Assembly: GCA_027486585.1 (NCBI GenBank) | Contig: JAIXOU010000027.1 | Coordinates: 1 to 64,000 of the forward strand | DNA: 64,000 nucleotides | Origin: Verrucomicrobiaceae bacterium | GTDB taxonomy: Bacteria > Verrucomicrobiota > Verrucomicrobiia > Verrucomicrobiales > Verrucomicrobiaceae | Direction: 5' to 3' | In this document: positions 3,324 through 63,946 of the stretch, piece by piece | Position numbering within the stretch: position 1 is the first letter of the stretch | Layout: each line of letters begins with the position of its first letter | Notes under the pieces: model-generated | The model's database searches: none | What the model was told of the DNA's origin: nothing | What the model saw: only the letters and a program-made list of their open reading frames with translations | Made by a program: the position numbers and the translations under genes

Positions 3324-6300
3324 TCAAGGCTTTGTCACACCTGTTAAAGCAAAGGTGATGCCCTCAGTCCATCCAAGAGGATAGGGAGCAAAATTAGACA
3401 CAGGTTTAAACCAAAGCGCTAGAGGCGATTGGAAGCTGCCAGCAGTCCCAGAGTCGTTAAAATCACTGCGTAGCAGCAGGCTACCCGCGTTGTCATGGAG
3501 CAGGACAGACAGCGGCAAACGCAATTGCTCATCCAGCGAGGAAGAAGCTGTAAACTTCGAACCATCACCAAGAACACCTGCCAAGGTAAATTGACCCGCT
3601 GACGTTATCCTTCCTGCCAGAGACGTCGCAGTCTGGGGATAGTCCGTGACTAGTAGTCCAGACTGAGCCAGAGCCCCCCAAGTCACATTGTAGGAACCCT
3701 TTCCTTTGAGTAGCGGAGAACTGGCTGCTAATGCAGAATGCTGGCGCGCTAGCGCAAACTCAGAGAGCGCAACAAGCCCCCCCCTACCCTGCTCTCCCAC
3801 ACTACCAAGAATGCGGCGAGTGCTTGGATTGACGGCCATCGCAAAAACCAAGTTCAGCTGGTTCAAACGTGGGATGATGAGGGCTGGCAGACGATCTTTA
3901 CCGAAGCGCGCCTGACCATTCGGATGGAGTTCGCCAGTTATGGGGAAAGAGGCAGGGCCAAGCTTCAGGTTACCCGTAAATGTACCAGCTTTCGTGAGGG
4001 TTAGTGTGATGAATCCATGGTTTTCATGTCGTTTTGCCACACTGCCCACTGAGGTAACCAAACCAGAATAATTGCCAGCATTGGCAAGATTAAAAGGGTT
4101 GGTTGAAAAGATTGCCGTGAGAGCCAGGCCTTCAGACATGGTGAAGGTCAGCGTTTTAGAAGCGACATTCAGACTTGGCCCTGTCCACCGATCCAAGAGG
4201 AAGCCCGTTTTGGATTGCGCTGTTAAGGTATAGGTCTTGCCAACTTCAAGCTGCCTCAAATCCGCTCCTGGAGTGATGGTGACTGTTCCTGAATTCAATG
4301 GCTGAGTATTCAGGGTCAATGGGCGCAGTGGATTGAAGGTGAATTGCCGAAGCACTTCATCTCCGATCAGGCCTAACTGATCGACGGCTCGAACACGAAC
4401 GATATTCAGACCTGCAACCGCCGGAATCTCGGTCGAATAGGTTCCCGTCAGACCATTCGCTGCCAGTTTTAAAATGACATCGTTAAAAGGTGCCCCATTC
4501 AGAGAAACCTGTACTTTATCGAGACCCTTATCGTCTGCCGCCGATCCTTTGAGTGTGAGCTCAGACAGAGCCACACGAGCATCAGACGAGGGGGTCGTTA
4601 AACTGACGGAGGGTGCTTTGAGATCGTTTTCCAAAATAAACACTTTGGCTTGATTCGGCAATCCAAGGGAAGCTGCACCCGTGACCGTGTCTAATTGCAC
4701 CGTGAATGATTCATTCACCTCCACTTTGGTGTCACTGATGAGACCAATATTGAGCACCTTGCTGACTTCACCATCTGCAAAAGTGATGACATCACTGAAT
4801 GGATTGAAGTCAGAGTTCTCTTTAGCGTTTCCAGACTTAGCGCTGATCCTAACGCTGGCAGGACTGCTGCGATCACCAGATCGCAAAAGGGTCACACTCA
4901 CCACACCACTATCTTCCCTACCTCGATAAGAACTGCTGCTAAATGAGAACTGACTTGCGCCTGTCGAGGCTATCGGAGTTACCAACGTAAAGCTATTGTT
5001 AGATGACACAAAATCGCCGCCACCCGATACCGTTACTTGAGTGCTGGCATAAGCAGGCGAATTCGCCGCTATCACAAAAGCCAGGGTGAGCGCTGGATAA
5101 CTGGCTCCCGTAGGCAGCGCATCATTGCGACTGGCTGAAACAGTTGCGCCACTAGACGATGCAATATTCCATCCCAAACCCGTCAATGAGGTGGCAGTCA
5201 ATCCAACAGGTAGCGCAACTGAAACAGTGACCTTACCTCCCGTGGTCAAAGTCCCTATATTGCGAACCGCGACATTGTAACTGGCCGAGGCACCCGCTGT
5301 GAAATTGCTATTGGCAACCATTGTTGCCGTCAAATCCGAAGTCTGCTTCACGTCGAAGATGGCCTCAGTAAGAGCACTCCATTCACCAGATTTCTGGGCA
5401 CGTACTTTCATTGGCACCTTGCCCGTGCCACTTAGAATCAAAGGAACGGCAACATTGGTGCGAACAAGCTGAAGTGTCGCATTAAAACTAGTGTCACTGC
5501 TATTGGCATCGGCCTGATGTACCTCTGCGGCCAAGGTATTCTCGCCAGTGATTAATAAAGCAGGGTCCAGGCTAAAGATGAAGAATGCATTCTCGTCAGG
5601 TGCGCCACCTGAAGCATAAGTATTATAGGCTGGATTACTGACAATGTTAGGCGAGCGCACAACTTCCACGCCATTCAAATACAGAATCACAGCATCATCA
5701 TACTTCACCTTGAACTCAGCTGCAGTCACAACAGCAGCATCAGGAACGGTGAACTTTATGCGGAAGTAAGTCGTGGCATTTTTCTGATCACCCGCTGTTC
5801 CAGGATCAGCATCCACAAAAGGCACTATCGTCTCCTCATCACCATCTCCATAGCCTAGCTCGCCAGGACCACTGGACCAAGAGCTATCATCATAGCTAGC
5901 GTTACGCCAAGCAGTCCCCTGATCACTACCATTGGCGAGATATTTCCAGGTTTGGTTCAGGGGTATAACAACATCTATCTCAGTACTGCTGACATAGGCT
6001 TGTGCGACAGGATTTAACCCACCACCAACCAAGCGAGGATCACTGCCATCGAGAGTGTAATAAATCGTGCCACCATTGCCAGTAAGCATCACCTCTCCAC
6101 CGCTTGGGAAACTCCCGCCATTTTGACTGAACGTCGGCGCATCAAAGCTAGGATAAAGTCCGTCAGCCCTTAATTGATCAAGCACACGACTGCCACGATT
6201 TGGCACATAATCATCAATCACATAGTTCACCGCGTTTTGCCAGTCCAAACGATTCAAAGGCGTATCAGTACCACGCTTAGCGTCTCCCCATCGCGCAGAC

Positions 6301-9300
6301 TCAGCAATGATGAATTTGTCCAACAAAGCTTTTCGATCACGCATCTTTGACTGAATTTGCTCAGCTGTTAATGCTCCTTCATTGAATAGATGCTTCTGCA
6401 CATGGTCTGCCCACAGGATCCGATACTCAGCATTGGGCCGCAGGTCATGATGCAAGTACATGGGATTATAACGCTCAACCAAAGTTGGATCACCCGCAGA
6501 AAAAGGTCCTGTACGATCTTCATCGACGTTAAAAAAAGTATGCTCGAAATCATGAGCCAAAAATTTAAAGCCGCCGGCAATGCCAAGACGATTACGCACC
6601 GCAAACCAATTATTAGCCGCACCGTCACCAAGAAAAGCAGAGGTCGCTCCATCGAGATTACCAGTCCAAAAGGTGAGCAGCATGTAATCAATCAAATTGC
6701 CAGGATCTAAAAGCACTGGATCTGCAGTCAGTGTCAAGCCATCAGCAGCTTTACCAGACATGGCAAAGTAGTTTTCATTGGTAGGAGCACTAGCATGAGC
6801 GCGAGCCTTGACTCTCAGAGCCTCCCAAGCATCCAGATTGCCATCAGTCACACCCGTGATGTAGCCCTGATCCTGCTCGCCTTTAATTGTGTCATAGTCG
6901 TCAGCATTACCACCGAGATAACTTTCTGCGTAGTTGGCCTCAGGACGTTCGTCGGTTTCATAGATCCCCCAATACTGGCCATTGAGATACAGATGATAGT
7001 AGCGACTCCTCGTATAGGGCTGCCCCATAGCTCCATGCATCTCACGAGTGCTCTCTTCACGCAGGAAAGTGTTGTTTCCATCTCCACCAAAGGACCATGA
7101 GTAATTTTGTGAAGTGCGGAGGTCGATTTTGTTAAAGCTTGGCGCACCTTCATTGCCAAACAATGGGTAGTTCAATTTAGCCGCCCCATATTCAGCGCGG
7201 AAAAACAAACGGAATGAATGTTTTGGATTATCACCACTACGGCTAAATCCACCACGCAGGCGCAGCCCGCAATTGATTTCAAACCCACCATCAGGACCAT
7301 TGTCCCCTATCATCTCAATGGATGCAGGCCGCTCCCAAGCTTCACCGCGCCCGTAAGGATTCACCCAGATACCGTTGGATTCATCGAACAAATTAGGCAA
7401 GTCTGTAACAATGGAGAGCGTCGGAATGGCTGTCAGCGCTGACTTCACTTTATCCAGACCACCGATCTCTGGATTGGTGCTATTCACGATGTCTGGGTCC
7501 ATCCCATAATCCGAAACTTGACCATTAACCGTCCCGAGTGGCCAGCCTGCGTTGGGGCGGACTCCATTGGCAGATTGGCGGACCACATCATTCAGAAAGA
7601 GATAGGTTTGCGTTAGCGACTTTGTCGGCTGGAAGCCTGCTTTATAGCCAATGGCACGCACTGTGCTGGTTTTTGAAACGGTTAATGGACGCATATATAA
7701 CGAACCATGTGTGGTTGTCGGAGTGCTACCGTCCAAGGTATATCTTATACTTGTTCCAAGTGTCGGCGAAGTGATGGCCAGTGAAATAGAAGTCGAGTAA
7801 TAACCATGTTTATGACTAAAGATAAGCGGCTGCACTTCACCTGCAAAAGCAGGCACCTCATTGACAGCTCCTGGTGTAGCTGTAATCACGCTTCCAGATG
7901 GCCGAAAAAAGAGTGTATTACCTGCTAGACCAGCCGTTGCACTCAATTCAGGCAATACGAAAAAGGATCCATCCGACTTCACATCATTCATGGCATGAAC
8001 GGCCAAAACATTGTTTCCTGTAAGCAACAAGGGAATGGAAGTTGATAAATCTAGAGTCTCACGAGTCAGAGCCTGCAAAGAGGATCGTGTCGCAGTTGCA
8101 GCGGAATCAAAAGCAGAATTTACAGGTACGTTGCGGCGGGCGACCTCGGTTCCATTCAAATAGGCCACAAAGCCGTCATTGTAGCGCATATGCAAAGTCA
8201 GACCCGTTAAGCTACTGACTCCTGTTGCCACGAATGGAAGGCGTACAAACACACTAGCGTTTTTATTGCGCATAGAAGTCTCTAGATTTGCACCTATTAA
8301 CAGAGAACTGGAATTGGATGCATTCAGTGGAGGCGTCACGACCGCAAGCCCATCGACACTGCCCACCAGTTTAAAGTCCGAGTTCCAAGCCGTGTCCGTC
8401 CCAGCTTTTGCAAAGAATTCCACACAATCTCCGCCACCGCCCTCCCACATGATAACCTCTACTGTATGTGGGCCTGCGGTGAGACTTATAGGCGGACTTA
8501 AATTATCAACTGGGCCATGATTGCTATCATCCGTCATAACGGCCACGCCATCGATCTTGATACGACCTCCATCATCTGAGTTAAGACCAAACACATAGGT
8601 GCCTGAGCTTGGAATAGTAATGATACCGGTAGCTTTCAGGGCATAGGGTTCAGCAGTGCCATTGGGCAGAGCCATGTTATCAGGATAGTTACCATCTCCA
8701 CCATCACCGACATAGTTGATCGTTGGAGCGATGACCGTAGCCTCGCTGAGAATGGAACTGTGCCCTTTTGGCAAGGCCAAAAGGGCATCACAAGTAGCAA
8801 TGCTACTCACGCCACCGAAACCCGGTTTTTCAGCAACCTGTCGCACTGTAAACCCAGGCACACCAACGCCGAACCCAAGACCCGTTTTACCGGACGACCA
8901 AGATGAATCCGAAAAATCGGGAGCAACCCAAGCGCTGCCCAGAGTTGCATTCGTGGGCACACGATATTTCACACTAGCCTTTTGGCTCAAAAGGGAGCGA
9001 CCCGTGAAATTGATCCCATAACTCTCATCATTAGCCTGTGCAGGATACATGGGAGAGAAATGATGCTCAATGGTCACGCCATCGGGACGAACCAGCGCCA
9101 GATACTCCCCGCCAGCGCTGAGGCTAAAGTTTGTATGCAAAGGCTGTGATGAAAGGGTCCGATTCTTGCCTGAGGCCCAGACTAGCAGGAATTGCTTGGC
9201 TCCCAGTGTCAGTTCAGGGAAACGCCATTTGGATAAATCAGACGAACTATCCGTCAAACACCAATTGGTAAGATCCACTTCATCAGAACCTGGGTTGTAG

Positions 9301-12300
9301 ATTTCAATCCAATCCGAAAAGTCGCCATCGACATCACTGATCGTGCTCTCATTGTTGGCCATGAATTCTGAGATCACCAATTGAAGTCGAGGATTGAACT
9401 TGGTCTTTAAGCTGACCACGCCAGATTGACCTGAACCATTGCTAACCGCCGGCTTGGAAGAAAGGAAGTGTCCAAAGCCTCGGCGATGAGCCCCTTTTTG
9501 CAGGATGACTCCCTGATAGCTAGAAGCAGGCAAACCTTCTGCAAGCTTGATGCTACCCTTATAACTTCCAGTGCTGGAAATGAACTGGAGTGTGTAGCTT
9601 GCATCATTGACTGGCACTTTCGTGATCACGTTTTTTGCACTGATCGTCATCTCTTTTTCCACAGCAACCGACAACCCACCCAGCGACAAACTGAGAACGG
9701 CATTGGCACCGACCACCTCACTGAGGTCAGGCAAAACACTTTCTCCATTAGGGACTGCATAGCGTGTTCCCAGCAGTGGCAGTATCACACCTTCAGGCCA
9801 TCCCATCGGATAGTAGTGACCATTTGTCTGCGGCTTGAACCACCGAAGATCGCTTCCACTCAAATCCGTATCAGGGCGTGTATGATCCACCTTGAGCCAG
9901 CCATTCAAAGAGCCTGCTTCCTTCTCCAAAGGAATATACAAAGGAGCTTCACTCGCTTTGCCCATTCGTGCACTTGCTGTCACAGCAGTGCCGTCGGCCA
10001 AGATTCCAGAAAGATTCATGACTCCTGACCGACTCACCTGGATTGTTCCAATCCCATCTCCTTGAGGAAATGCCGTGACTGGTAAAGCCTGCGCCTGAGC
10101 TGGCATGGCAAAAGTATAAATGGAGGCTGGCGCTGTGGTTCCGGGAGTTTTGCCATCAAAGAAATAGCGAATGGCTTTTAGCTCAGACATAGCCAGAGTG
10201 CCTGATCGCGTCTGCAAACCAAGAGTTCCGTTAATGCTTTGCGTTCCCGTAGGAGAAAGATCCAGAGACATCGTGAGGACATAAGCCGCCTGATTGATGC
10301 GAGGCACCAGCAAGGAACTAGATCTGGCATATCCAAAACGTGCGAGACCTGCATGATCAAACAGACCAAAAATCGGCAACCGAACACCGTTGAGTCTTAA
10401 CGAGCCGGAAAAACCGCCTCTGGGACTTACCGTGAGTTGTACAAAGCCATCTGTTTGATGACTGGCTGGCGTCGGCGCAACAGCACGAATCAATCCGCTG
10501 TAATCTCCAATGATCTGAGGAATAAAGGGATCAGGGACAAAGGTAGCCTTGATGGTCAAGCCTTCCGTCATTTGAAAAACAAGATAAGAACTGCCAGCTT
10601 CAGCCTCCGTCAGTGTGAGCTGAGCCGACGACCACTCTTTAAAAAGATAAGCGGACCTTGGATTGGCCACCAAGGAATAATAATTACCCACCTTTAGCAG
10701 GCCAGTGGTCGTCTTGGTCTCATTCGTGACATTGATAAAGGTGAACGTCCGCAGAACGAGATAAGAAAAGCTTCGCGTAATAATCGTCGATATATTACCA
10801 CGAAAATCGATGGCACGGACACTCAGCGTATTGGCACCAGGGACAGGTAAGATCACACGACTAAAGTTGACCCTGCCGCCTGTACCAGTTGCCAAGGTCG
10901 CATTCGCATAGGGAGCGTCGTTCAACTTCACTTCGATTCGAGCAATGCCTTTATTGTCACCGGCATTCCCACTCACGGTCACAACGCCTTCAGGCACCTC
11001 TTGATCGGCGGCGGGACTTGTCAGACTCAATGTCGGCTTCTGAACATCTGGATCCAAAATTCGAACGCGAACGGTATGGATCGCTCCCAAGGTGGCTCCG
11101 TTTGTCGGCTGACTCAGCACTACCGTGAATGTTTCATTTGGCTCAGCTCGGCTATCAGTCAATAATGGAATAATCACATTCTGGCTGACCACGTTATCAG
11201 CCAAAGTCACGCTGCTACTCACAACTGTATAATCACTGCCTGCAGTGGCCGTCTCATTGCTAGAATTAACTGAAACGCTTACCGCTCCAGTCCTCCCATT
11301 CGTTCGCCTGATCTGCAAGCTTACTGTAGGTTGCTCCTCATTCACGTTCACCTCTTGAACAGACCAAGCCAAAGATCCTGGCCCCGCCAAAGCTATGCTG
11401 CTACTGACGCTATCAGAATTGTTCAGCTGATTTAACTCACCGCCACCAGCTACAGTGACGACGTTTTGTAGCAGTGACGGGGCATTTACAGCGATGCTAA
11501 CCGTGAGGGTCAGCGGCGGATAGCTAGCCCCCGAGGCCAAAGAATCAGAGCGACTCGCGCTAACACTCGATCCTGCGCCTTGCAGAATGGTCCAGCCAGA
11601 TCCAGCCAGAGTTACGGCAGTTAAGCCATCCGGTAAGGTGTCAGTCAGACTTACAAGACCAGAAGTGTCTCCGGTCCCAGAATTTGAAACCGTGATCGTG
11701 TAGGTCGCGCCTAAATCGCCTGATTGAAAAGGACCATTTTCGACAAGATCCACCACCAGATCAGAAGTCTTTAAAACCGTATTTACCGCCGTGGCATTGC
11801 CATTATTGGACTCGTGACTTTCGGCGATGCTGTTAGCGGGATCGACCAGCGCTGACCCAACAGCAGCTGAGTAATTGCCATCGACCAGACTTCTCGCCGT
11901 AATGGTCGCAACGGCAGACATCCCGACATTGATCGCAGCACCACTCAGACTCACCACACCATTGTTTTCACTGATCAAAAATTCAGGGCTCGACCCGTTC
12001 ACATAATCAAGCCCTGCAGGCAGTGTGAATTGGGCGTTTACCCCTGTGGCATTGACGAGCCCATGATTGGCAACGGTCAGGATATAGTCAAAGGAGGCTC
12101 CAGTGAGCTGCGAGGGTGGCCCCGTCAAGGTAAGCGCCAAATCAGGAGCATCGGTCACCGTCGTCGCCAAGATTTGTGTGGACGTATTGTTGCCCTCGTC
12201 CATCTCTTTCAAAGCTAAGTCAGGATCAACCACGGCAGCCCCAGCCGTCAAATCAATCACCCCAGACGAAGACCGCGAGACTTTCACGACCAACGTTGCC

Positions 12301-50957: not shown

Positions 50958-53900
50958 TCACTGTTTGTTGGTGATGGTGACCCGGCCTCCAAGGATCGGG
51001 CTATTGGACAACGTCTCGTTCACGCTGGTTGGCATCTGCGGCATGACAAAGAAACCACTCCCGTAGGCACGTTTGCCTTGTGGACTATTTGCGTCGATTC
51101 CACGGTACGGCACGATCAGCCCCTCAAAACTAACGGTCCGCGTCAGACTTTGCGGAATACCGTTTTTGGTAAAAGGATTGAGGTCTGTCAAAACAAAGCT
51201 TCCTTTGAACATACCCGTTGCCGCAGTGATGCTTAGAGTCGTCCGGGTGGCAGAAGTAGGCATCGCCAGTTTCCCATCTGCAAGAATGCTGAAGGTGATG
51301 GCTGGCTGATTGGCAGCGCCACCACCATCGAAATCAAGCTTGGCATTGTTCAGGACGAGTGGCTGCGAAACGCTGTCCAGCAGCAGTTCGCCTTTCGCCG
51401 GCGGCACGTATTGCCCCCCAGACATGCTGACGCTAACGCTATTAAAGCCCTCCTTGTAAAGACGGCTTGTGTTGACTCCGGGTGCACGGTTCCAACTGAG
51501 CAGCAAAGTTCCAGCACCATTATCCCTCGCACCGTCTGATGATTCAGCGCCGCACAAAAGCCGCCCAGCCAGGCAGCCTTTTGTAGCACTGATGTAGGCA
51601 TACAATGGGGACTGGGATTGCGAAAAACCGTATGGCTCCGAAAGAAACCCGCTGCAGGTCACCCGCTCACCATCGCCGGTTCGTCCCACCAAGTTAAAGA
51701 CACCATTAAGCCCCACGGTGAAGTTCAAATAACCTGCCGACCTCGGCACAGGATGCCCAAAAAGATCCAAGCGTTCTTCAACATCTGGGGTTAGATCGGG
51801 ATCGGCCACGAGGTTGTACATGCCATCATAGGCCGTGGCTTTGACGGTGTTGCTCCAGGGCTGCCGCCATCCTAGCATTTCCAGATCCCGAGTTTCGTGT
51901 TCCAGGTCCGAAGTTTCGTGAATAACCGTGATCTTCCCTGTTAACTGACGCGGCTTGCCAGAATCTGGAATCAGGGTGAAATCACCTTGGATATCAGGCT
52001 TGCCTTTTCGTTTCACCGTAAACCGACCGGTTGGGTCCACCGCAGCATCCGCATCGAGCACCCCAGTGAATGGGAATTTCACCCCACCTAAGGTCAATGA
52101 TCCGCTGTAGGCGGCGCTGCTCAGCACCGTTAGATCCAACCGACCATACATCTCTGGCGAATAAGGCACTGGGAAATCCTGCCAGGCTTGCAGGCTAACG
52201 ATGGCTGCGTAGGCACCTACAGTTCCCGTTCTCAATGGCGCTACCGCAATTCCGGCGGTCTCTTCATCCCTTCCCAAACTATTGATCGCGGCGATTTTCA
52301 CAAAGTAACCTTCGATCTTGGCAACCGTTGGCTTGCCTGAGATGACTCCGGTCGTGGCATTAATCTTGAGGCCGGGCGGCAGTCCTGTGGCCACATAACT
52401 AGTTGCCTCTCCACCGTTATCCAAATCCAAAGGAACCGTGAATTCATAACTCTTGCCAACCATCGCGTCGTCCAAAAGCAGAGGACGCTGAATCTTTGGC
52501 TTTAGATTAAACACCTTCACACTTGTGAGCGCCCCCCATGCGGTTCCGCCTGCAGCAGTGATCTGACACTGGTAATCCCCCTCGTCCGCATCCGTGACAC
52601 TGTCGATGGTCAATTCTCGGCTATCCCAGCCCTTATTGCGTCCATTATAGCTCACTGCTGCACCGTTCTTGTGCCAGAGGTAAGTTAGGCCATTGCCCAC
52701 TGCGGTGACCGTCAGTTTCATCACCTTGCCTTGCTGCATCGTGACCGTCTTGGAGATGATAGAGGATTCAACGACGCCAAGCTCGACCTCGTTGCTCAGG
52801 ATGCCTGTGGTATTCATTGGATTCTTAATTCTCACTTGATAGCGTCCTGCCTGAGAAGTCATCACAGCAGCGATGTCTAGGCTTCTTGAACGCGCACTGG
52901 CCACGTCCGCACCGTTCCGTCGCCACTGGTAGGTTAGGGTGGGCCGACCAAGGGCCGAAACGACAAATCCGGCAGAGTCCCCCACATTCACGATCAGGGA
53001 TTCCGGTTGCTGTTTAATCTCCGGTAGCACACGAACCAACAAGACCGCCGGGTTGCTCATTCCGCTCATCTGCGGGTTCGTAATCACCACATGGTAGTTG
53101 CCCGCCTGACTAAGAGTCGCGGAAGTCAGAATTAATTCAGGTTGGGTCGCTCCCGGGATCTCCCGGTTGTTGCGATGCCATTGATAGGTGGCGAACTCTC
53201 CACCGCTGCTCAATTGCACGGAAAAGCGTGCCTCGCTTAGCTCACTGACTTCCTGAGACTGGGGCTGCTGCGCAATCACGATGTCCTTTTCATACACCGT
53301 CACAGCTACGGTTGTTGTCGCGTTCAGGAAGCCGTCACTCGCAGTGAGGAGGATCGTTGCCGTCCCCTTCTGCCCTTCAATCGGATCTAATATGACGCTT
53401 CGGCTTGAACCCGTGCCGCTGACCGTGACCCGGCTGACCGGAAGCAAGGCTTGATTAGTGCTACTGGATGCAACCAGCGTCAGGGTAGAAACCTGAGTAT
53501 CAACATCCGCAACTGTGAAAGTTAGCGCTTCTTGCCCATCCTCAATCATGGCTTGGGTCAGTGGCCCAACGACTGTCGGTGCCTCATTGACGTTAAGAAT
53601 CGTGACTGTCAGTGCTTTCTCATAATAAAGCCCCGCGCCATCTGTGGCACGAAGTCGGACCGCATAGCTGGATTTCGTTTCATAGTCCGCAGTGGGACTG
53701 AGCCGCAAGCTGCTGCCACTAATCGTGAAACTGCCGTTGTCTACCGAACCTGAACCTGACACGAAGGAGTAGGTATGCGTGTCGCCCAAATCCACATCCG
53801 TCGGAGCCAGCGTGCCTACCACGGCATTTGTGGCATTGTTTTCAGCAAGGGCCGCTGGATTCAAGGTCACATCCGTAGGTGCGTCGGGCACAGCCTGGAC

Positions 53901-59881: not shown

Positions 59882-62800
59882 ATGCCAACCAACACCTTTT
59901 TCAAAATCCTTGGCGGGCTTACCAGCTTGGTTCTGGTGATGTGGGTCACGCAAGAAGCGGTGCAGGAAATCCAGCAAGACATGCCCAAGGCATCTGCAAC
60001 CGAGGTCAATCCACGCAAACAACTTCGAAGCCTGAATTCGATCCAAAAGGTGAGAGCCAATCCTGAGGCTCAGGCGCAGGCCTGGCATGATTTAATGGCA
60101 GGTCGCCCGTTTGTCCTATCGGTGGATGGACGTGCCCAGCGCTTCACGCTTTCTTTATCGGAGCTTTATCTCACCACAGCAGCGACGGACAAACGTTTTC
60201 AAAAGCTCACTCCTCTTGCGAATGCTCAGGCACTCATCCAGGCCGCCAAGGAGCTGAATCCTGAGACGACAGGTTGGGTCATCTATCCTGAAGGGCATGA
60301 AGATGAAGTTCAATCTCGGCAAATCCTGCACAAGCGGATTCACATTCAAACCACGGACCGTGAGAGAACGGTTGCCTTGCTGAAAACCCACGGGCTCAAG
60401 CTAATCAGTGAGCCCGATTACTCGCCCGGCAGCCTCATTGTCGAACCTCTGCAAGGTGGACCCGAGGCCGCCCTCAAAGCCCTTGAACAACTGAGCGGAG
60501 ATCCTTCCATACGATCCATCGGACCGCTACTCCTGCGGCAGATGCAAAAGCACGCCACGCCGAATGATGCTCTTTTCACCTCTCAATGGCATTTGAAAAA
60601 CACAGGCCAAGGTGGTGGCAAAGTCGGCGCAGACATGAACGTCACCTCCGTCTGGGATACCTACAAAGGCCAGGGCATCAAAATCGCCATCGTCGATGAC
60701 GGGCTGCAAATTCTGCATCCAGACTTGGCCCCCAATGCCGACAGTGCGAATCATTATGACTGGAACGATTCCCCAAACGATACCAATCCCGCGCCATCGA
60801 ACTTTGCTGAGGACTTTCATGGAACTTCAGTTGGTGGTGTGGCAGCTGCTCGCGGCAATAACTCGATCGGTGTTTCGGGTGTAGCCCCTGAAGCTACGCT
60901 GGTGGGATTCAGGCTCATTTCTTCACCGACCTCCGATCAAGATGATGCGGAAGCCATGGATCGTGGAAAAGACATCATTCAGATCAAAAACAACAGCTGG
61001 GGTGCCGGCGGTTTTGCTTGGTCACTGAGGCCTGCGGGTGAGCTTATGGAAGCGGCACGTCAAAACGCGACGGAGACGGGACGTCAAGGCAAAGGCACCC
61101 TTTTTGTGTGGTCGGCAGGCAATGGCCGTGAGGAAGGACAACAAGGCCAAAAAGACGGATTTTCCAACTCCATGTTCATCCTGACGGTCGGCGCAACGAA
61201 CAATCAAGGCGCACTAACCGATTACAGTGAAACGGGGTCTCATTTGGTTGTCTGTGCACCCAGCAGTGGTGGCAGTGTGGCTATTTTCACGAGCGATCTT
61301 ACAGGTAACCAAGGTTACAATGAGAGAGGAACAGCCCAAGGTGAGGTCGCCGATCTCGACTACACCCATGACTTCGGCGGCACCTCCTCCGCTGCACCGG
61401 CGGTCTCAGGGGCTCTGGCGCTGATGCTCGAAGCCAATCCCGATTTAAACTGGCGTGATGTGAAGGAGATCCTGCTGCGCACGTCCACACAACTCTTGCC
61501 AGTCGATCCAGGCTGGATTTCCCGCGATGGTGGAGATAGCAGCTTGCCGGTCATTCGACATCATCAGTCCTTTGGGGGAGGCCAAATCGACGTGCAAGCA
61601 GCTGTGACTCTGGCTGAAACATGGACCTCTTTGGGACCCATGATTCAGGACTCTCGGACCTCGAATGCCGCCGCTACCATTCCAGATAATAACACCAAGG
61701 GCATTTCCATTGTGTTTGATTTTAGTACAACGAATCCGATGAGGGTCGAACATGCCAAGCTCAACTTAAATGTGTTTCACTCTTATCGGGGCGATCTAGA
61801 GATCAAACTCACCTCTCCTTCTGGCACGGTCAGCACACTAGCCACCAAGGAATCAGAAGATGATGGCTCCAACTACTACGACTGGAATTTTAGCAGTGTC
61901 CGACACTGGGGTGAATCCGCTAAAGGCAAATGGATCCTCACCATCAAAGATCTCGATCCCCTCACCACAGGAACCTTTGACTCAGCCAGGCTGACCCTCT
62001 ATGGAACCGACTTCACGCCGATTGCAATCACGGCACAGACCACCGCGTCCCAGTTTTTAGCCGCTGGACAGCCGCTGACTCTGGATACCACCTTAACGGG
62101 ACAGGGTACCTTCACTCATTCCTGGCTGCAAAACCTCAAACAAATCGCTACGACCAAGACGCTGCATATCCCTGAAACCAGCCTCAGCCATGCAGGGCGC
62201 TATCAGGTGAAGGTCAGCAATCTAACCGGAAGTGATACTTCAGACATGGTCTCTGTCGGCGTGGTCAATCGCACCCTTCCAGCAACGATCGTCAACTTAG
62301 CCACCAAGGCCAGCATCACAGCCCAGGCCGCAGGCGAAGGCCTCACGTACGAATGGAAACTGAATGGTCAGACGATTCCTAAAGGTGGGAAAATCTCAGG
62401 CATGGATTCCAAAACGCTCTCCATCACGAACATGCAGCCTGGAGACACGGGGCCATACACCTGCGTTGTTCGCATGTCAGGCGTTGCTGAAACGATTGAG
62501 ACGCTACCTCTAACGGTCGAACTTCGCTACAAACCCATCGTGACCCCACGAAGCCTTGATGATGGCATTGTCAGCGGTGCCGTGAACGAGCAGATTTCAG
62601 CAATCCATGGCACCACCCGATTCACCGCCACAGGATTGCCCCCTGGAGTCAGTATCAGCCCCTCCGGCCTACTGACGGGCCGCCCAGGAAGACTTGGAAT
62701 CTATAAAATCAAAATCACGGCGACCAATCTAGCTGGCTCTAGCCCACCCGTGGAATTTGAATGGGATATCCAAGACTTCCCACTCGCGGCACGAGGCACT

Positions 62801-63946
62801 TGGACGGGAATCGTGCAGCGTGATAGCGGCCTGAACACAGGTCTTGGCGGGCGCGTTAAACTCAGCATCTCCAATACAGGCACCTACACTGGAACCATCA
62901 CGTTAGGAACCAAGACCTATGCCTGGGCCAGCCGTATTGATGCCCTGCTTAACAATGCCAACCCGACAACCCCCTTCACCATTTCACGAGGCAGAGTTCT
63001 TACACCGCTGACGGGTAACATTCTTTTGAATCTCAGCACCGACAGGCTCTCTGGCACGATCTCGGATGGATCCAACACGGCGGCTTTTGAAGCGTTTCGA
63101 AATCCGTGGTCGGCAACCAACAAACCCGTTCAGGCAAGCACAGCCTTCAACGCTGCGCTGGAAGTTCCCGAAGCTCTAGCTCTCAATACAGCGTATCCGC
63201 AGGGACATGGCCATGTGAAGATGACAGTCGGCACGACAGGAATCGTGACTTGGGCTGGTAAATTGGCGGATGCCACGACCCTGACGGGAAGCTCTACACT
63301 CGGTCTACTAGGTGAGACTTCTTTTCACGCCATGCTTTATTCAAACACAGGGAGCACCCAAGGATGGAGCACGATCACTTTAGATTCAGGTCTTGTGGAT
63401 GGGACGATGGATTGGTTTAAATCCCCCCAACCTGACAAAAACACAACTCGAACCTATAAATCAGGCATCCCTTTACATACGCTCAAGGTCCGCGGCGCTA
63501 GATACCTGAGACCAGCCTCACCAGCCATGATCCTTGATCTAGATTCGCAGCCCGCAGCGGGACCTCTAACAAACAATGCCAAGCTAAGATTCACGGGACT
63601 CCCCTTATTCACGCGATTCGACCAGACTTTTAAAATCACTCAATCGCTGAGCGCAGTGATGCCCACATTGATCTTGGAAAACCCGCAGGGTGTCAGACTC
63701 AGCTTCAGCGCAACGACGGGGACTCTGAGTGGCACGTTTAGTTTCAGTGATGACGATCCCAATGACAGCACCCTTCCGTATGCCAAAATCTTGCGCATCG
63801 GATCATTCAGCGGACTGCTTGTCACCAGACCAGATCTCAATCAGGGCATCGGTTATTTTAATCTGGCAGAGTTACCCGATACCGTGGGTGAGAAAAGCAC
63901 CTCAACACCCATCATCTCGGGCAAGGCAGAACTTACAAGGCCTTAA
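59882..63946 (+). CDS. S8 subtilisin/kexin-like serine protease with P-domain, Ig-like domains and shared C-terminal module
   Basis: IAIVDDGLQILHPDL (Asp), DFHGTSVGGVAAA (His), GGTSSAAPAVSGALALMLEANP (Ser); P-domain HSYRGDLEIKLTSPSGTVSTL...GKWILTIKDLDPLTTGTFDSARLTLYG; ORF track opens at 59867, ATG at 59882. Confidence 0.92.
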   Translation: MPTNTFFKILGGLTSLVLVMWVTQEAVQEIQQDMPKASATEVNPRKQLRSLNSIQKVRANPEAQAQAWHDLMAGRPFVLSVDGRAQRFTLSLSELYLTTAATDKRFQKLTPLANAQALIQAAKELNPETTGWVIYPEGHEDEVQSRQILHKRIHIQTTDRERTVALLKTHGLKLISEPDYSPGSLIVEPLQGGPEAALKALEQLSGDPSIRSIGPLLLRQMQKHATPNDALFTSQWHLKNTGQGGGKVGADMNVTSVWDTYKGQGIKIAIVDDGLQILHPDLAPNADSANHYDWNDSPNDTNPAPSNFAEDFHGTSVGGVAAARGNNSIGVSGVAPEATLVGFRLISSPTSDQDDAEAMDRGKDIIQIKNNSWGAGGFAWSLRPAGELMEAARQNATETGRQGKGTLFVWSAGNGREEGQQGQKDGFSNSMFILTVGATNNQGALTDYSETGSHLVVCAPSSGGSVAIFTSDLTGNQGYNERGTAQGEVADLDYTHDFGGTSSAAPAVSGALALMLEANPDLNWRDVKEILLRTSTQLLPVDPGWISRDGGDSSLPVIRHHQSFGGGQIDVQAAVTLAETWTSLGPMIQDSRTSNAAATIPDNNTKGISIVFDFSTTNPMRVEHAKLNLNVFHSYRGDLEIKLTSPSGTVSTLATKESEDDGSNYYDWNFSSVRHWGESAKGKWILTIKDLDPLTTGTFDSARLTLYGTDFTPIAITAQTTASQFLAAGQPLTLDTTLTGQGTFTHSWLQNLKQIATTKTLHIPETSLSHAGRYQVKVSNLTGSDTSDMVSVGVVNRTLPATIVNLATKASITAQAAGEGLTYEWKLNGQTIPKGGKISGMDSKTLSITNMQPGDTGPYTCVVRMSGVAETIETLPLTVELRYKPIVTPRSLDDGIVSGAVNEQISAIHGTTRFTATGLPPGVSISPSGLLTGRPGRLGIYKIKITATNLAGSSPPVEFEWDIQDFPLAARGTWTGIVQRDSGLNTGLGGRVKLSISNTGTYTGTITLGTKTYAWASRIDALLNNANPTTPFTISRGRVLTPLTGNILLNLSTDRLSGTISDGSNTAAFEAFRNPWSATNKPVQASTAFNAALEVPEALALNTAYPQGHGHVKMTVGTTGIVTWAGKLADATTLTGSSTLGLLGETSFHAMLYSNTGSTQGWSTITLDSGLVDGTMDWFKSPQPDKNTTRTYKSGIPLHTLKVRGARYLRPASPAMILDLDSQPAAGPLTNNAKLRFTGLPLFTRFDQTFKITQSLSAVMPTLILENPQGVRLSFSATTGTLSGTFSFSDDDPNDSTLPYAKILRIGSFSGLLVTRPDLNQGIGYFNLAELPDTVGEKSTSTPIISGKAELTRP

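Follow-up and report, generated by a model that had tools for sequence, protein, structure and literature searches.

A C-terminal module on large secreted proteins of Verrucomicrobiaceae, with predicted calycin-like barrels and a candidate role in surface sorting or anchoring

We examined a 64,000-nucleotide stretch of a Verrucomicrobiaceae genome (GenBank assembly GCA_027486585.1, contig JAIXOU010000027.1, positions 1 to 64,000; hereafter the window), in which three giant proteins carry four copies of a shared module. The copies form a family that stands mostly at the C-termini of proteins with signal-peptide-like N-termini and is distributed among genomes in an all-or-none manner. We favour the explanation, at roughly even odds (about 0.5), that the module serves at the C-terminus to sort Verrucomicrobial secreted proteins to the cell surface or to anchor them there; that it mediates their recognition, export and anchoring is what we infer.

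Four copies of one family in the window

The original prediction had described four copies of the module, and all four exist near the places it gave, with similarities far beyond chance. Pairwise BLASTP among them gave E-values from 3e-48 to 4e-6, a profile hidden Markov model (HMM) built solely from copies outside the window recovered each of them, and none of 700 shuffled sequences matched the full profile at E ≤ 10. The copies, numbered m1 to m4, are the following (aa, amino acids):

m1, 9396..10517, minus strand: internal in the 3434-aa protein P0001 (aa 1038-1411), full length (374 aa); HMM E = 2e-54
m2, 3336..4085, minus strand: C-terminal in P0001 (aa 3182-3431), about 250 aa, without repeat 3 (the last third); HMM E = 3e-19
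m3, 50964..52226, minus strand: C-terminal in the 2192-aa protein P0002 (aa 1771-2191), full length; outside-copy HMM domain E = 2e-73
m4, 62786..63943, plus strand: C-terminal in the subtilase P0003 (aa 974-1359), full length; outside-copy HMM domain E = 7e-93

The copy at about 10520-9740 had been taken for a short form, with the last third visible only in two other copies. This was mistaken, as m1 extends to 9396 and includes the last third; the truncated copy is m2, which aligns to positions 3-239 out of about 384 in the outside-copy model. C-terminal placement likewise holds for m2, m3 and m4 but not for m1, behind which Pfam places LTD, PA14 and CotH domains. The similar endings that had been noticed in m3 and m4 (PTSVNETLSNSPILGGRVTITNKQ / DTVGEKSTSTPIISGKAELTRP) belong to the family-wide end of the module, with the consensus '...tspILSG.V.L'.

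Judged by its sequence, the module is a large unnamed family. Neither Pfam nor NCBIfam placed a family on it in the three whole window proteins or in 27 copies scanned singly, where single members alone gave chance-level matches (E = 0.058 and 0.0098). PHROGs gave no match to the module, and PDB sequences none beyond one designed barrel (E = 0.097). The description of a shared, uncharacterised, beta-rich module is thus upheld by the silence of these four collections on any characterised domain and by the like predicted folds of two window copies. Literature searches, with most subscription journals outside their coverage, returned no description of it.

Terminal position on unrelated proteins

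In the window's genome, our first profile found 41 matches; the open frames that hold them measure 507 to 8889 aa. The module lies no more than 30 aa from the C-terminus in 31 of the 35 proteins retrieved, where random placement would give about 4% for each; the binomial tail is 1e-38, computed over paralogues that are not independent events. Distant relatives elsewhere in the phylum (L041, L043-L046) also carry the module near the terminus. On contigs C82, C88 and C137 of the window's genome (G000) it closes open frames of 6855, 7428 and 8889 aa. Three large adjoining genes on contig C115 of the same genome (L086 and L092, 7500-26061) carry it internally, with Ig-like domains behind it, unlike nearly all other copies.

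At the N-terminus, 29 of the 32 testable proteins have a signal-peptide-like hydrophobic segment by our own hydrophobic-run criterion, followed in many by A.A-type ends, and Sec export through such a signal peptide is likely. None of the 32 N-termini contains a lipobox. No C-terminal membrane helix was found in 31 proteins: within their last 70 aa, hydropathy over 19 aa peaked at 1.58, below the cut-off of 1.6. The passengers are unrelated to one another: they include a subtilase with a P-domain, an M64 peptidase, kelch, NHL and DUF5122 propellers, CotH/LTD/PA14 and Calx-beta domains and many immunoglobulin-like (Ig) and He_PIG domains, and a He_PIG or Ig domain often directly precedes the module.

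Tens of copies or none

We confined the profile searches to the window's own phylum. Among 30 sampled genomes of the family (Verrucomicrobiaceae by named loci, of which there are 8), 16 bear the module; the named loci include those of a Prosthecobacter debontii metagenome-assembled genome, Prosthecobacter sp. and Brevifollis gellanilyticus. Bearers mostly have 14-64 copies (one each in G292 and G299, three in the fragmented G305) and the other genomes have none. On a tree of Der (EngA) from 29 genomes, presence of the module needs a minimum of 3 changes; 500 shuffles of this label needed 10 on average, and none needed so few.

The pattern extends into the window's own genus. Four sister species (G308-G311; support 100/99) have zero copies and no remnant at E 1e-5, and the other six sampled genomes of the genus have 22-64 copies. 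The absence from this clade was probably produced by loss, although repeated gain is possible. Since a whole clade lacks the module without remnant, its absence would be easiest to understand as the loss of some single thing on which all the copies rely.

At the class level, the module occurs in 32 of 286 sampled genomes (19 of 137 genera), and weaker relatives, often near-terminal, occur elsewhere in the phylum. The earlier term 'lineage-specific' is therefore right in outline but too narrow. Plasmids gave no match to the module. Three of the class-level matches (G315:C29:12162-13163, G324:C32:76519-77538 and G343:C61:164715-165731) contain one in-frame stop each and are perhaps pseudogenes or sequencing errors.

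Predicted fold and conserved residues

We modelled two window copies with AlphaFold2 and compared them with PDB structures using Foldseek. The m4 model, computed from 12 aligned sequences (window and related loci only), reached a predicted local distance difference test score (pLDDT) of 79 and a predicted template-modelling score (pTM) of 0.79, and DSSP assigned it 23 strands in the order 8+8+7. The m1 model (pLDDT 72, pTM 0.71) has the same strand order, with a weak last third; the predicted layout common to both is 8+8+7-8 short strands. Within m4, DSSP on the AlphaFold2 model delimits three repeats:

m4 repeat 1, 62795..63112, plus strand: barrel-like, 8 strands; GTW on strand 1, FR (WR in the family) at the end of strand 8
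m4 repeat 2, 63140..63502, plus strand: barrel-like, 8 strands; PQG.G and W.K motifs
m4 repeat 3, 63578..63943, plus strand: 7 strands, with the tail PIISGKAELTRP at the end

Foldseek points to calycin-type barrels for both copies. For m4 the matches were TbpB (E = 3e-5), HphA (probability 1.00) and fatty-acid-binding proteins and the lipocalin C8gamma (0.9-0.99); for m1 they were DUF3598 (E = 2e-4), TbpB, HphA, lipocalins, avidins and HpuA. The alignments cover single barrels (about 115-135 columns), and whole-chain TM-scores are low, mostly 0.1-0.3 (0.12-0.34 for TbpB, HphA and, with m1, HpuA; 0.12-0.21 for TbpB by itself), as would be expected if the barrels are flexibly joined or if their overall arrangement is new. 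On these models the module is predicted to consist of three tandem, small, eight-stranded calycin-like barrels. The strands have a median length of 8 residues and most alternate between hydrophobic and polar residues, features more in keeping with soluble barrels than with one that spans a membrane.

In repeat 1, strand 1 carries G-x-F/Y/W (G in 52 of 53 sequences, F/Y/W in 51 of 53) and strand 8 ends in W-R (R/K in 49 of 53). Repeat 2 has G-x-Y and, in all 53 sequences, W211, with K/R213 two residues further on. The most conserved residues of the module (G, P, W, D and the terminal PILSG) look structural. We also considered an internal threefold sequence repeat, and a common origin of the barrels is unsupported: profile comparison between the repeats gave one 22-column match alone (repeat 1 against repeat 3).

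Host genes, neighbourhoods and a second C-terminus

The three host genes in the window were delimited by Pfam and translation (P0001 and P0002 also by their N-termini, that of P0001 being hydrophobic), and their domains assigned by Pfam:

P0001 gene, 3324..13628, minus strand: likelier start ATG 13607; a first array of DUF11/CARDB, Calx-beta, Big_7, InlB-like and m1, and a second of LTD, PA14, CotH, Calx-beta, Big_7, InlB-like and m2
P0002 gene, 50958..57536, minus strand: signal peptide probably from ATG 57422; kelch propeller, Ig/Laminin_G_3, cadherin-like, He_PIG and m3
P0003 gene, 59867..63946, plus strand: likelier start ATG 59882; subtilase S8, P-domain, Ig domains, He_PIG and m4

P0001 thus appears to be two alike domain arrays placed end to end, the first closed by a full module and the second by a truncated one.

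Elsewhere, one module gene has a conserved neighbourhood (L065-L068 and L101): upstream of it stand genes for a DUF3570 outer-membrane protein and for ApbE, and downstream, in three or four of these loci, genes for a YceI-like protein and for a type III polyketide synthase.

A second C-terminal module, 'D.DGDG...E.WFGT...Y.IEYS.DL..W...FYRV.(I/L/T)P', occupies the last ~100 aa of another subtilase lineage and of many other proteins (L136, L137, L138, L148-L151), and was found in 23 of the 30 Verrucomicrobiaceae genomes, including the window's. We considered whether those subtilases of non-bearing genomes that end in 'FYRV.(I/L/T)P' are P0003 orthologues with a swapped C-terminus and rejected this, as they form a separate lineage that is also present in the window's genome (L148). 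They share 57-86% identity among themselves and about 41% with P0003, and occur in bearers and non-bearers of the first module alike. Related subtilases bear either C-terminus within one genome.

Discussion

If the module sorts or anchors proteins, the N-terminal signal peptide would bring them by the Sec pathway to the periplasm, where the C-terminal barrels would fold. An outer-membrane partner would then recognise the barrels, which end in the conserved, predicted strand '...PILSG.V.L', and the passenger would be moved across the outer membrane or kept on it. Several features suit the original suggestion of anchoring or sorting: the module's place at the C-terminus, the signal peptides at the other end, the variety of passengers and the distribution as all or none. 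The few internal copies speak against it.

Several observations weigh against a sorting or anchoring role. No cognate transporter or processing enzyme emerged among the candidates tried. Exosortase occurs in all 30 genomes and the module in 16, so the two do not track each other. The type IX secretion system (T9SS) protein SprA (TIGR04189) was found in none of the 30 genomes, with the control set silent too. A Slam partner of the type XI secretion system (T11SS), prompted by the TbpB and HphA fold matches, was dropped, as Slam/DUF560 (PF04575) was found neither in the window's genome nor in 28 of the others; there was one weak match (G188), and the controls were silent. The DUF3570 outer-membrane protein is absent from the bearers G200, G290 and G298 and present in the non-bearers G291 and G295. 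As for local partner genes, most of those beside the window copies have housekeeping functions, and nothing telling surrounds the match in G140. The three adjoining genes of contig C115 have 105-454 aa behind the module (Ig-like in the parts read), and one exceptional protein comprises a signal peptide, the module, a further 125 aa and little else. Finally, at about 370 aa the module is long as sorting signals go, and it may be no more than a binding domain.

This last idea is the main alternative: in a ligand-binding, adhesin-like module, the ligand of the barrels would be small and hydrophobic, or a glycan, or else polysaccharide of the cell itself, and display would be achieved by other means. 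Lipocalins, fatty-acid-binding proteins and avidins are binding folds, many of the single-barrel Foldseek matches exceed a probability of 0.9, the passengers are rich in domains that typify adhesins (Ig, He_PIG, Calx-beta, kelch), and internal copies are tolerated. A binder would not, however, require the terminal position seen in 31 of 35 proteins or the pattern of tens of copies or none, and the best conserved residues do not look like a cavity set, so that we regard binding as possible but rather doubtful. It is unlikely that the module neither sorts nor binds but caps long repeat proteins at their C-termini and so stabilises them. Soluble barrels could seal the end of the Ig or He_PIG arrays behind which the module stands in most proteins, but proteins as short as 507 aa also end in it, and a cap leaves its concerted absence from whole species unexplained.

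Slightly less likely again is that the module serves for targeting in a divergent system, of type XI (Slam/DUF560) or type IX, that the profiles missed. TbpB, HphA and, for m1, HpuA, which are T11SS cargo or relatives of it, are among the best Foldseek matches, and the T9SS exports giant proteins bearing C-terminal domains. The near-absence of PF04575 (one weak match in 30 genomes, none in the window's) speaks against this reading, as do the search for SprA, which gave no match in the genomes or in its control set, the missing lipobox and the low TM-scores to TbpB; the T9SS signal domain is moreover a small Ig-like beta-sandwich (PMC11285876).

A sorting or anchoring module could belong to a dedicated, unrecognised outer-membrane export or anchoring system of Verrucomicrobiae, a more tentative proposal in which three tandem calycin-like barrels at the C-terminus would label 20-60 proteins per cell, some near 9000 residues, and the system could be lost whole with all its cargo. 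We know of no established route by which Verrucomicrobia bring very large proteins to the cell exterior, and an unnamed module on dozens of giant proteins per genome offers a handle on this export. Because the all-or-none pattern separates close relatives, also within the window's genus, the machinery should be findable by comparison of gene content. The module would also put a name to the last 370 residues of many proteins whose other domains are just Ig-like and similar ones.

Comparison with known systems

An autotransporter (type V) barrel is also a C-terminal beta-rich unit, but it spans the membrane with 12 strands, whereas the module has 23 short strands, matches soluble barrels, occurs internally in places and has no Pfam match to an autotransporter family. 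The PEP-CTERM/exosortase and GlyGly-CTERM/rhombosortase systems likewise place a many-copy C-terminal label on unrelated exported proteins; the module differs in having no C-terminal membrane helix, and exosortase is present regardless of the module. The T9SS C-terminal domain, too, sits on many proteins that are exported by Sec and otherwise unrelated, giants among them, but is a small Ig-like sandwich (PMC11285876) rather than a barrel-like unit of ~370 aa, and none of the 27 module copies matched a TIGR04183/PF18962-type domain in Pfam or NCBIfam.

Calycins (lipocalins, fatty-acid-binding proteins, avidins) and DUF3598 (2o62) have the kind of eight-stranded barrel that is predicted for the module. 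The calycin signature is a first-strand Trp stacked on a last-strand Lys/Arg (PMC2954199), and repeat 1 resembles it in its G-x-aromatic on the first strand and Arg/Lys ending the last, a match at the level of residues. In the module, unlike in calycins, the aromatic is more often F/Y than W, there are three repeats at the C-termini of giant proteins, and Pfam finds no match.

In the T11SS, effectors unrelated to one another are guided to a DUF560 protein of the outer membrane by an eight-stranded barrel at their C-termini (PMC12282271, PMC8406197). T11SS cargo, which these two papers describe in Proteobacteria only, has one or two handle-barrel pairs where the module is predicted to have three tandem barrels, and the module lacks a lipobox, a Slam/DUF560 protein in the window's genome and sequence similarity to that cargo, so that membership is unsupported. 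Nevertheless, TbpB, HphA and HpuA carry, as is predicted for the module, a C-terminal eight-stranded barrel behind variable effector regions and are its best company in Foldseek, and for the proposed role the T11SS is the closest functional parallel.

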